From: Candidatus Endomicrobiellum agilis
Lineage (GTDB): Bacteria; Elusimicrobiota; Endomicrobiia; Endomicrobiales; Endomicrobiaceae
DNA length: 64,000 nucleotides
NCBI GenBank assembly: GCA_020328155.1
Contig: JAIXMX010000005.1
Coordinates: forward strand, 1-64,000
Reading direction: 5' to 3'
Of the stretch, positions 16,638 to 20,389 are shown in pieces. The number at the start of each line of letters is the position of its first letter. Within the stretch, counting starts at the first letter, position 1. Under the pieces are notes generated by a model that was not told the origin of the DNA, did not search any database, and saw nothing but the letters and a program-made list of their open reading frames with translations. The position numbers were made by a program, and so were the translations under genes.

Positions 16638-16805
16638 TCAAATTCTTTCATATATTGAACTTATTATATCTTCGCGCATATCAATCAGGTCTCTCGGAGG
16701 CTCGTCAAACTTACCTCACCGACTTATCAGCGGCTGTGCGGAAATGTAGATATTGCGTGTTTCCTTTAAAATGTCTTCTGTAACGCTCTCAACGTTTTCG
16801 GGCAT
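16638..16805 (-). pseudogene. Small protein family copy E, interrupted by a stop
   Basis: ATG 16805, ribosome site AGGAG overlapping the stop of the preceding lipoprotein. It reads MPENVESVTEDILKETR and stops at codon 30 (TGA) because of a small deletion relative to the intact copy at 17954-18130. Homologous sequence (KFDEPPRDLIDMREDII) continues in the same frame to a stop at 16638. No lipoprotein follows; this is the end of the island. Confidence 0.75.
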
Positions 16806-16814
16806 TCTAGGCTC

Positions 16815-17399
16815 CTATCTTACATAAGGGGACTTCGGTACTTCAATTCCGAATATCTTCCTCAACCAAGTTTTCAGAGGTTTCAGCTTTGACAAATTGG
16901 ATTTATAATAGTAAGTAGGTAATACAAATTTAGAACTTCCTTCTTTTACATTAACAGGAATTTCTTCAATAAATTTATCTGTATCCCAATCAAAAAAATG
17001 ACCATTACTAAAATAACATTCTTTACAACCTTCAGGCATATTTTTAGCAGAAGGAATTTCATCTAATAAATCCTCAAGAAAAGGATTAATATCTACAAAT
17101 CTATAAAGCAACTTATAACCGCCATAACATACGACAATAACGGACAGAATGACAGCAACAGCACAACCGACATATTTCCCAACTGAGCTACCTGTATCAG
17201 CACTATCAGACGGCAGAGCAGACTTACTCGGCTCAGGTGTTGGAATGGGAGTGTTTGAAGTATCTGACGTCAGCGAATGCGGTGCTTTATCCTCAACAGC
17301 AGTATTCACAGGTCTTCCATGCCTAAGCAGCTTATCACAGCCAGACGTCAGGCATATACATATACATATACATATACATATACATATAATTTTTTTCAT
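16815..17399 (-). CDS. Paralogous lipoprotein 6 with (Ile-Cys)6 signal peptide
   Basis: 194 residues. The signal peptide is MKKI, then six Ile-Cys pairs encoded by six TATATG hexamers, then lipobox LTSGC. The mature protein starts Cys-Asp-Lys, followed by a Ser/Thr/Pro-rich linker (PTPEPSKSALPSD), one hydrophobic helix (AVAVILSVIVVCYGGYKLL) with a basic end, and a C-terminal domain of about 90 residues with CYFSNGHFFDWDTDKFIEEIPV and LKPLKTWLRKIFGIEVP. Asp at +2 would favour inner-membrane retention if the Lol rule applies; the basic residues after the helix suggest the C-terminal domain is cytoplasmic. Function unknown. Confidence 0.85.
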   Translation of the reverse strand: MKKIICICICICICICLTSGCDKLLRHGRPVNTAVEDKAPHSLTSDTSNTPIPTPEPSKSALPSDSADTGSSVGKYVGCAVAVILSVIVVCYGGYKLLYRFVDINPFLEDLLDEIPSAKNMPEGCKECYFSNGHFFDWDTDKFIEEIPVNVKEGSSKFVLPTYYYKSNLSKLKPLKTWLRKIFGIEVPKSPYVR

Positions 17400-17400
17400 T

Positions 17401-17949
17401 TTAATATTTAAATACAGGTGTTTTAATTCCGAATATCTTCCTCAACAGAGGTTTCAGCTTTGGCGGATTAAATATATAGAAGCAAACATTGTCAATCCCA
17501 TTAACCCTAAAAGGTATTTCATCAATATATCTACTTGAAATAACAGAAAAAAAATGACCATCTTGAAAATAACATGCTGCATAATTTTGCTTCATATTTT
17601 CAACAACCTTCAATTTATCTACAGAGCGAGGCTTAATATCTGCAAATCTATAAAGCAACTTATAACCGACATAACATACGACAATAACGGACAGAATGAC
17701 AGCACCAATCTTCCCAACTGAGCTGCCTGTATCAGCAGTATCAGACGCAGGCGGAACAGACTTACTCGGCTCAGATGTTGGAGCGGGAGTGTTTGAAGGT
17801 TCGGGAGCGGAAGCATTTGGAGTATCTGACGTCAGCGAATGCGGTGCTTTATCTTCAGTAACAGCATTCACAGGGCTTCCATGCCTAAGCAGCTTATCAC
17901 AGCCAGACATCAGGCATATACATATACATATACATATAATTTTTTTCAT
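17401..17949 (-). CDS. Paralogous lipoprotein 5 with (Ile-Cys)4 signal peptide
   Basis: 182 residues, same architecture as its neighbours: signal peptide with four TATATG hexamers and lipobox LMSGC, a longer Pro/Ser/Thr linker (APEPSNTPAPTSEPSKS), helix IGAVILSVIVVCYVGYKLL, and a C-terminal domain with CYFQDGHFFSVISSRYIDEI and LKPLLRKIFGI. The ATG is four bases after the stop of the intact small protein at 17954, and its own stop is one base before the next lipoprotein ATG, so all are translated from one messenger. The closest paralogue by eye is the copy at 18342-18908. Confidence 0.85.
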   Translation of the reverse strand: MKKIICICICICLMSGCDKLLRHGSPVNAVTEDKAPHSLTSDTPNASAPEPSNTPAPTSEPSKSVPPASDTADTGSSVGKIGAVILSVIVVCYVGYKLLYRFADIKPRSVDKLKVVENMKQNYAACYFQDGHFFSVISSRYIDEIPFRVNGIDNVCFYIFNPPKLKPLLRKIFGIKTPVFKY

Positions 17950-17953
17950 TTTC

Positions 17954-18130
17954 TTAGTTGTCCCCTATCCTGTAAACTAAACCTATTATATCTTCGCGCA
18001 TATCAATCAGGTCTCTGGGAGGCTCGTCAAACCTATCGCATAACCGCCTTATTAACGACTGTGCGGAAATGCAGATGTTGCGTGTTTCCTTTAAAATGTC
18101 TTCTGTAACGCTCTTAACGTTTTCTGCCAT
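17954..18130 (-). CDS. Intact 58-residue small protein of the lipoprotein operon (copy D)
   Basis: This is the only intact member of a family found five times in the window. It starts MAENVKSVTEDILKET, continues ISAQSLIRRLCDRFDEPPRD and ends IIGLVYRIGDN. It has no signal peptide; it is predicted helical and amphipathic with a central FDEPPR turn, so probably cytoplasmic. Ribosome site AGGAGA precedes the ATG. The stop is four bases before the ATG of lipoprotein 5. Conservation of the pairing suggests it acts with, or regulates, the lipoprotein. No known family recognised. Confidence 0.75.
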   Translation of the reverse strand: MAENVKSVTEDILKETRNICISAQSLIRRLCDRFDEPPRDLIDMREDIIGLVYRIGDN

Positions 18131-18147
18131 TCTATTCTCCTACAATA

Positions 18148-18913: not shown

Positions 18914-19087
18914 TAGTTGTCCTCAATTCTATAAACTGAACTTTTTATATCTTCATATATCAATCAATTCTCTCGGAGGCTCGTCAAACTTACCGCATAA
19001 CCGCCTTATCAGCGACTGTGCGGAAATGTAGATACTGCGTGTTTCCTTTAAAATGTCTTCTGTAACGCTCTCAACCTTTTCAGGCAT
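18914..19087 (-). pseudogene. Small protein family copy C, frameshifted
   Basis: ATG 19087; reads MPEKVESVTEDILKETRSIY and runs to a premature stop after 44 residues (18953), caused by a 2-bp deletion relative to copy D. The original ending (YEDIKSSVYRIEDN) is intact in the other frame up to 18914. A 44-residue product could still be made. The same deletion occurs in copy B, so B and C share it by descent or gene conversion. Confidence 0.7.
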
Positions 19088-19088
19088 T

Positions 19089-19715
19089 CTAAGGTCTCAT
19101 TAAATCATAATAGTTCGTAGGTATCCTGAATATCTTCCTCAACCAAGTTTTCAGAGGTTTTAGCATTGACGGATTAGGTTTATAAAAGAGACAATAATAA
19201 GTAGGTAGAGTAGGCAAAGCTATCTTAGCAGGTATTTCGTCAATCAATTCATGTGTAACACAATCAAAATAATAATAACGACTAAAACGAAAATAAACAC
19301 TACATTCTTTATAACCTCTGGGGAAATATGTAAAAATACGCAATTTATCTGCAGAAATAGGGCTAAAGTCTGCAAATCTATAAAGCAACTTATAACCGCC
19401 AAAAATAACAATAAGAGCAAAAACACAACGACCAATATTCGCAGCATATTTCACAACTGAGCTGCCTGTATCAGCAGTATCAGACAAAGGCGGAGCAGAC
19501 TTACTCGGCTCAGGCATTGGAGCGGGAGTATTTGAAGGTACAGAAGCGGAAGCATTTGAAGTATTTGACGTCAGCGAATGCGTTGCTTCTCTTCCTTTAT
19601 CCTCAACAACATTATCCGCAGGTCTTCCATGACTAAGCGACTTATCACAGCCAGACGACAAGAATATACATATACATATACATATACATATACATATACA
19701 TATAATTTTTTTCAT
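19089..19715 (-). CDS. Paralogous lipoprotein 3 with (Ile-Cys)6 signal peptide
   Basis: 208 residues from ATG 19715. The signal peptide has six TATATG hexamers, then Ile-Phe and lipobox LSSGC. The linker is Ser/Pro rich, the helix (CVFALIVIFGGYKLLYRF) ends with basic residues, and the C-terminal domain has CSVYFRFSRYYYFDCVTHEL followed by IDEIPAK and LKPLKTWLRKIFRI. It is the longest copy of this cluster. Its stop lies one base before the ATG of small protein copy C. Confidence 0.85.
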   Translation of the reverse strand: MKKIICICICICICICIFLSSGCDKSLSHGRPADNVVEDKGREATHSLTSNTSNASASVPSNTPAPMPEPSKSAPPLSDTADTGSSVVKYAANIGRCVFALIVIFGGYKLLYRFADFSPISADKLRIFTYFPRGYKECSVYFRFSRYYYFDCVTHELIDEIPAKIALPTLPTYYCLFYKPNPSMLKPLKTWLRKIFRIPTNYYDLMRP

Positions 19716-19719
19716 TTTC

Positions 19720-19894
19720 TTAGTTGTCCTCAATCCTGTAAACTGAACTTTTTATATCTTCATATATCAATCAATTCTCTCGGAGGCTCGTCAAACTTAC
19801 CGCATAACCGCCTTATCAGCGACTGTGCGGAAATGTAGATACTGCGTGTTTCCTTTAAAATGTCCTCAGTAACGCTCTCAACGTTTTCAGTCAT
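19720..19894 (-). pseudogene. Small protein family copy B, frameshifted
   Basis: ATG 19894 with AGGAG overlapping the stop of lipoprotein 2. It reads MTENVESVTEDILKETRSIY and terminates after 44 residues at 19760 because of the same 2-bp deletion as copy C. The ancestral C-terminus remains readable in the next frame to 19720, four bases before the ATG of lipoprotein 3. Confidence 0.7.
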
Positions 19895-19895
19895 T

Positions 19896-20183
19896 CTAGG
19901 CTCCTATTGGGCTAGATACAGGCTCAGGCTTATAACAAAAAATAGGCTTTCTATCAATAAGGTAGTCATTCGCAACTGGTGTTTCTTTAATCAGTTTATC
20001 TGTTTCAAAATCATAATAACCCCAACAACGATTTATCCTCTTGAAAAAACACCAAACCAAAGAAATACTATCCTGATAGATGTAATAACAAGTTCTATAA
20101 CCGTCCGCAATAAGGTTGTCAGTCCTTCTATTACAGCCAGAGATTAAGACTGCCATTAAGAACAGCGATATTACTTTTTTCAT
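19896..20183 (-). CDS. Short lipoprotein related to the family C-terminal domain
   Basis: 95 residues: signal peptide MKKVISLFLMAVLISGC, no Ile-Cys run, no linker and no second helix. The mature part carries the same pattern as the C-terminal domain of the larger paralogues (aromatic core, YYDFETDKLIKETPVAN, then ...CYKPEP). It is thus a minimal, helix-free version exposed on the outer face of the inner membrane or in the periplasm. Its ATG overlaps the upstream stop as ATGA, so it is translationally coupled. Confidence 0.7.
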   Translation of the reverse strand: MKKVISLFLMAVLISGCNRRTDNLIADGYRTCYYIYQDSISLVWCFFKRINRCWGYYDFETDKLIKETPVANDYLIDRKPIFCYKPEPVSSPIGA

Positions 20184-20389
20184 TTTTTTATCTCTTCCGC
20201 TTTATCTTTCTTTGCATTCTGCTCCTGCTGAGCATATGCTGCTTTTAATGTATCTGCGCTTATGCCTCTCATTGCAGCAGCAATCGGTTCAATCATTTTT
20301 ACAGATACCTTTGAGGCAATACTGTCCGATAGCTGGTCACAACCTATAAACATCATACAGCATATTACCAAACTAACTAATCTTTTCAT
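20180..20389 (-). CDS. Small lipoprotein at the head of the operon
   Basis: 69 residues: MKRLVSLVICCMMFIGC signal peptide, mature CDQLSDSIASKVSVKMIEPI and a charged helical tail (AYAQQEQNAKKDKAEEIKK). Probably a coiled coil, similar in size to Lpp-like proteins but without their sequence. Its ATG sits at the end of five tandem ATAGG units that supply the ribosome-binding site. First gene of the 20.4-16.6 kb operon. Confidence 0.75.
   Translation of the reverse strand: MKRLVSLVICCMMFIGCDQLSDSIASKVSVKMIEPIAAAMRGISADTLKAAYAQQEQNAKKDKAEEIKK

Follow-up and report, generated by a model that had tools for sequence, protein, structure and literature searches.

Repeated small-protein and lipoprotein genes in an Endomicrobium genome: a probable mosaic lipoprotein island family with a decaying companion gene

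Contig JAIXMX010000005.1 of Candidatus Endomicrobiellum agilis (assembly GCA_020328155.1) carries between gcvPA and gcvPB an island of lipoprotein genes interleaved with copies of a small open reading frame (ORF) of about 58 codons. The first 64,000 nucleotides of the contig were analyzed and are referred to here as the window. A first-pass annotation of the sequence had taken the alternating genes for an undescribed two-component family, and the locus raises the question of whether the small ORF is a gene at all and, if so, whether it is the dedicated partner of the lipoproteins beside it. The genome sampled is a 1.286 Mb Endomicrobium metagenome-assembled genome (MAG) of 23 contigs (completeness 99.9%, contamination 0%), in which the window lies on contig C18. 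The closest named relatives of its gcvPB protein are Endomicrobium MAGs, with 89% identity to Endomicrobium sp. Hs463_bin80. Endomicrobium is a genus of termite-gut and flagellate-associated bacteria known for genome reduction. The small-protein/lipoprotein family is real, unreported as far as searched, and confined to one species among those searched. The reading we favor, with a probability of roughly 0.6, is that of a lineage-specific, probably mobile-element-borne family of mosaic inner-membrane lipoprotein islands carrying a decaying and now largely dispensable helper gene.

Copies and coding status of the small gene

Five minus-strand copies of one frame of about 177 nt were found in the window, with 84-89% DNA identity to the copy at 17954-18130 (blastn E 1e-51 to 1e-56), a match far beyond chance. 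The earlier count of five was correct for the window but an undercount for the whole genome, where 24 near-full-length copies were aligned in addition to two fragments. Frame inspection also confirmed that within the window only the 17954-18130 copy is intact while the lipoproteins of the cluster are intact. Genome-wide, full-length intact copies number 7 of the 24 and are located on C18, C21 (two), C10, C20, C11 and C15. The other 17 are broken: the C2 copy has had its C-terminus replaced, one C21 copy has an open frame which has lost its start, and the remainder carry indels and stops, either shared or private. A long form with a different, longer C-terminus is represented by the intact C11 and C15 copies (65-68 aa) and the broken C9 copy. 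Located 3' of the long form at locus L047 (12362-12814) is a 150-aa Cys-rich ORF (MRKLLHETNNKPPDD...) with no family match; degenerate copies of it were seen on C15 and C9, and C20 has matching DNA.

With respect to coding status, changes among the copies were set against the expectation from the mutation spectrum and expressed as the ratio of nonsynonymous to synonymous polymorphism (pN/pS). Alleles common to at least two copies (20 synonymous, 18 nonsynonymous) gave a pN/pS of 0.38 (p=0.002), while singleton changes (10 synonymous, 29 nonsynonymous) were neutral at 1.09. Synonymous enrichment was not seen in the remaining sense frames of the small ORF. The Shine-Dalgarno sequence was retained in 20 of 24 copies, broken ones included. 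Structure prediction gave a helical hairpin with helices at residues 5-33 and 39-67 (mean predicted local distance difference test score, pLDDT, of 91), and the protein is acidic (isoelectric point, pI, 4.4-4.9) with neither a signal peptide nor a transmembrane (TM) segment predicted, in agreement with the cytoplasmic helical peptide proposed at first. Since the singletons are neutral, most copies would appear to be decaying, and the pN/pS of 0.38, the Shine-Dalgarno sequence and the confident two-helix model together support a true protein gene, selected before or during amplification and at least formerly constrained by purifying selection.

Foldseek matched the small-protein model to generic helical hairpins only (best E 0.2), and no match to the small protein or the lipoproteins was obtained in Pfam, NCBIfam, PHROGs, PADLOC or PDB sequence searches, in keeping with the earlier view of an undescribed family. 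Weak Pfam matches such as MCD_N scored below cut-off and were rejected as indicating membership of a known family. A structured RNA scan of the window found three tRNAs only, none within the island, and no Rfam match for the small-ORF block.

The repeated block and the lipoproteins

In nearly all copies genome-wide the genes lie in tight same-strand runs in the order lipoprotein, small ORF, next lipoprotein, and the reported adjacency of small copies and lipoprotein genes was borne out throughout the genome. In most copies the upstream stop is 1-17 nt ahead of the small start, and the next lipoprotein begins with an ATG close to +181. The stop/start overlaps said to link the chain were for the most part real, with TAGAATG junctions at 19896/19894, 19089/19087 and 30642/30640 and an ATGA overlap at 20180-20183, whereas an ATAA junction is open to doubt, as ATA does not normally serve as a start codon. 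Two lipoprotein genes (17401/17399) are joined directly as TAAAATG. DNA identity among copies was 27-31% upstream of -16, 65% at the Shine-Dalgarno sequence (-15) and 90% in the first 50 nt of the ORF; across the downstream lipoprotein it was 82% in the first 30 nt and dropped to about 20% over the 3' half. The repeated block therefore consists of the Shine-Dalgarno sequence, the small ORF and the lipoprotein signal and linker. The last codons of the small gene carry a GAGG motif ahead of the lipoprotein ATG.

Alignment of 24 lipoprotein paralogues revealed a common signal peptide and an invariant SGC lipobox, with differing TM and C-terminal parts. This lipobox fits the [GAS]C ending expected of signal peptidase II lipoproteins; Pfam LPAM_1 matched one paralogue only, below cut-off. 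Five lipoprotein frames of the window are open (16815-17399, 17401-17949, 18342-18908/18926, 19089-19715/19733 and 30642-31466), as are frames of at least 180 codons for 28 of the 30 strongest matches in the genome. In five separate close pairs the ratio of nonsynonymous to synonymous substitution rates (dN/dS) for the C-terminal part ranged from 1.54 (kappa 1) to 2.27 (kappa 4), with p from 0.01 to 1e-6 depending on kappa, values that come from Nei-Gojobori (NG86) counts on gapped paralogue alignments in which local misalignment may inflate ratios above 1. By the same counts dN/dS was 1.5-1.9 in the linker and 0.25 in the signal peptide, and the closest pairs (84-91% identical) gave 1.3-3.7, individually mostly not significant. 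Frames of close pairs are still open across 9-28% DNA divergence. A variable mature part with a conserved export signal, of the antigenic-variation type, was thus found. These alignments show lipoproteins whose frames are retained while their sequences diversify through amino-acid replacements and shuffled domains, with the C-terminus as the variable part of the block.

The lipoproteins had been described as lipid-anchored one-helix proteins with a cytoplasmic C-terminal domain. Consistent with this placement for most of them, the C-side of the TM helix was richer in K and R in 17 of 21 (four ties, none reversed), a positive-inside pattern that points away from surface exposure of the variable part. 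In the 95-aa lipoprotein a domain of this type follows the lipobox directly, with no TM helix, which demonstrates mosaicism and makes a cytoplasmic placement less certain. In about half of the lipoproteins the C-terminal helices are basic, with a net charge of +3 to +9. The lipoprotein structure model was weak (pLDDT 69) and gave no structural match.

Simple repeats are present at two kinds of site. Hexanucleotide repeats (ATATGT)n within signal peptides (17353-17388, 19664-19704 and 31287-31342) form ICICIC runs of varying length, possibly giving a length-variable signal peptide. The (TAGGA)n repeat of Shine-Dalgarno motifs before the first lipoprotein could tune translation; it also occurs under a conserved leader, AAAATCTCCTGCCTGTTCCGCA, before lipoprotein ATGs at about 20 further sites in the genome, and the exact pentanucleotide-leader pattern was absent in 41 other genus members.

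Insertion site and distribution

Relatives have gcvPA next to gcvPB, separated by roughly 60-150 bp, or by about 590 bp in one of them. The gap in Hs463_bin80 holds two genes (L104 3506-5955) which appear from their sequences to encode a restriction endonuclease and a DNA methyltransferase, and in the window the lipoprotein run adjoins a restriction-endonuclease-like remnant. The gap has the look of a hot spot for insertions. Beside some lipoprotein runs lies a tyrosine recombinase of 325 aa (Pfam E 3e-23), with 91-98% identity on C15, C23, C10 and C11, and a ribbon-helix-helix-like gene or its remnants adjoin runs on C15, C7, C20 and in the window at 33.2-33.5 kb. Several islands terminate at contig ends. 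From these neighbors we infer that the lipoprotein islands are probably of mobile-element origin. On C15 both the recombinase and the ribbon-helix-helix-like gene are located at L048 4011-5332.

The small protein was not found in 41 same-genus genomes (as a single sequence, with a profile used on 35) or wider relatives, and the lipoprotein family was likewise not found in these 41 genomes or wider relatives. Among named Endomicrobium genomes, neither family was found, the one exception being weak matches to the lipoprotein profile in Hs463_bin80, few in number and confined to the signal peptide. Neither was found in a viral collection, and searches made with the small protein only gave no match in a phage set or in a scan of 84,980 species. 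Weak profile matches elsewhere fell in proteins of about 614 aa reading like GspE/PilB-type ATPases and were judged to be chance. Literature searches returned no description of the family, and the main text of a comparative-genomics paper on Endomicrobia (PMC11257099) does not mention lipoproteins. The coordinates of the window features are presented in Table 1.

Table 1. Features of the lipoprotein islands and adjoining sequence in the window
Feature	Coordinates	Strand	Remarks
Small-protein gene, intact, 58 aa	17954..18130	-	Shine-Dalgarno AGGAG; end 4 nt ahead of lipoprotein ATG at 17949
Small-protein copy	19720..19894	-	2-nt deletion, stop after 44 aa (frame 19760-19894); TAGAATG joins start to upstream lipoprotein
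Small-protein copy	18913..19087	-	2-nt deletion in common with 19720..19894 copy; 44 aa (frame 18953-19087)
Small-protein copy, degenerate, gcvPB end of island	16658..16805	-	3-nt deletion, internal TGA, 3' end lost
Small-protein copy, second island	30464..30640	-	In-frame TGA at codon 31
Mosaic lipoprotein, 182 aa	17401..17949	-	Lipobox SGCDK, P/S/T linker, TM helix, C-terminal domain
Mosaic lipoprotein, 194 aa	16815..17399	-	Hexanucleotide repeat in signal peptide at 17353-17388
Mosaic lipoprotein	18342..18926	-	ATG at 18908 likely
Mosaic lipoprotein	19089..19733	-	ATG at 19715 likely; hexanucleotide repeat 19664-19704
Lipoprotein, 95 aa	19896..20183	-	Same-type C-terminal domain directly after lipobox; no linker, no TM
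Lipoprotein, 69 aa, first gene of island	20180..20389	-	ATGA overlap with next gene; paralogues on C10, C2, C1
Lipoprotein of same family, second island	30642..31466	-	ATG at 31352 likely
55-codon ORF, TTG start	18148..18315	-	Between lipoprotein and intact small gene; no paralogue of whole spacer found
(TAGGA)n repeat, Shine-Dalgarno motifs	20390..20415	-	Immediately before first lipoprotein ATG
Restriction-endonuclease-like gene remnant	20763..21037	-	BLASTP E 8e-8 to Hs463_bin80 gap gene, single comparison

Pairing of the two genes and rival readings

Distances among small ORFs were compared with those of their neighbors by Mantel tests of small n (12-23). Small-ORF distance was not significantly correlated with the C-terminus of the upstream lipoprotein (r=0.18, p=0.10) or with the N-terminus (r=-0.11) or C-terminus (r=-0.12) of the downstream one, and the N- and C-parts of the lipoproteins were correlated with each other (r=0.64, p=0.002). 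Since the small gene tracks neither neighbor, a one-to-one pair is unsupported. Partners of an obligate pair would both be intact and co-inherited, and intact small genes number 7 of 24 against 28 of 30 lipoproteins. Adjacency in other genomes, on which the first-pass annotation had staked its proposal, fell away as well: no homologue was found in any other genome searched, so that conserved adjacency can be demonstrated only among the paralogues of one genome. It is therefore unlikely that the two genes form a dedicated two-component system, with each lipoprotein acting together with the cytoplasmic peptide encoded beside it. The small gene does adjoin a lipoprotein in most islands, the hairpin is predicted with confidence, the small protein is acidic beside lipoproteins of which about half have basic C-terminal helices, and both partners are predicted on the cytoplasmic side; these points are set against the 17 copies broken beside intact lipoproteins, the uncorrelated distances, and median distances of 12% for the small ORF and 53% for the flanks. 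The lack of correlation and the pattern of decay argue for a shared or dispensable helper and against one-to-one partners, and what survives of the two-component idea is a weaker version, a possible partner that acts in trans and is shared by the lipoproteins.

That the block is kept for a role of its DNA or RNA, as a translational coupling leader or as recombination homology, and not for the peptide, we regard as quite unlikely. Such a role would fit the Shine-Dalgarno sequence being kept even in broken copies, the GAGG motif ahead of the lipoprotein ATG and flank distances unlinked to the small ORF, but it does not account for the third-position bias and pN/pS of the shared changes, for copies with no lipoprotein directly downstream whose C-terminus is longer yet helical, or for the lack of an Rfam match. 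Another reading is a neutral family of repeats, multiplied by recombination, in which neither gene is functional now. It would explain the neutral copy-specific changes and islands which often stop at contig ends, but is very improbable given lipoprotein frames that have stayed open as they diverged, dN/dS above 1 instead of stops, and constrained signal peptides. A more speculative proposal, to which we give little credence, is a fast-evolving intracellular recognition system, in which bitopic lipoproteins with a diversifying cytoplasmic domain (e.g., versus phage or host-flagellate factors) would be coupled by the shared acidic hairpin to a common effector, with recombination via the small-ORF block giving new specificities.

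In the favored reading of a mosaic lipoprotein island family, the lipoproteins would be held in the inner membrane by their lipid and a single TM helix and would have the variable domain on the cytoplasmic side. New lipoproteins would arise by tandem amplification and unequal recombination, for which the near-identical small-ORF/signal-peptide block would serve as homology, and the small hairpin may be a shared cytoplasmic helper supplied in trans from a few intact copies, or one on its way to being dispensable. The operon is probably spread by a tyrosine-recombinase element that carries it as cargo, and phage or host interaction is a candidate selective driver. Several observations weigh against this reading, in addition to the possible inflation of dN/dS. 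Recombination was deduced from mosaic patterns and not from breakpoints. No recombinase lies in the gcv island itself, and neither element ends nor attachment (att) sites were found. At the C22 island, the second one tested, the flanking sequences are apart in relatives, so this island is not a clean insertion. The C11, C15 and C9 small copies are followed by the 150-aa ORF or its remnant and not by a lipoprotein, which this reading does not account for. One antisense frame of the small ORF gave a comparable substitution signal (pN/pS 0.31), which is expected because antisense third positions are the same nucleotides as sense ones; antisense coding was rejected, as this frame has no Shine-Dalgarno/start organization.

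With respect to known systems, the sequence-variable mosaics of Phytoplasma have a conserved export signal and a variable mature part, as the Endomicrobium lipoproteins do. These mosaics and potential mobile units (PMC3322544) also resemble the present case in the reduced genome, the repeated mobile-type islands and the multicopy genes. Compared by description, the Endomicrobium family differs in having lipobox lipoproteins with a TM helix and an interleaved cytosolic small gene, and a tyrosine recombinase where the Phytoplasma units have a tra5 transposase. Mycoplasma and Borrelia have expanded families of variable lipoproteins with tandem paralogues, a conserved signal peptide, a diversified mature part and simple repeats, all of which are seen here. 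The predicted cytoplasmic variable domain, the hexanucleotide repeat in the signal peptide and the conserved small ORF between units set the Endomicrobium family apart, and no homology was found in the libraries searched. A further parallel, the insertion of restriction-modification (R-M) systems into genomes of Endomicrobium (Zheng et al. 2016, as cited in PMC11257099), is alike in site, the same gcvPA-gcvPB gap holding the R-M-like pair of Hs463_bin80 and the remnant in the window, but the cargo of the window island is lipoproteins. R-M systems are described as rare and randomly distributed in the family (PMC11257099).

Dozens of lipoprotein genes that diversify fast, and that were found in no sister species searched, occur in a 1.3 Mb genome of a genus known for genome reduction, an indication of a strong conflict or a niche shift in the recent past of this termite-gut symbiont. 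The islands offer a natural system in which to follow how a small protein gene arises, is shuffled and dies next to a gene in an arms race, and the topology, if true, would place the diversifying part in the cell interior, an arrangement that would be unusual.

Two further features of the window were observed. A candidate defence island (35188-43025) adjoins the second lipoprotein island and comprises a PDC-S06 AAA protein, a PDC-S01 protein and a SIR2 and HerA pair. At 71-570 there are CRISPR-like direct repeats of about 36 nt with a period of about 66 nt (ATATTAATAGATCTTATTTCAAAGGGCAACCCTAAC).

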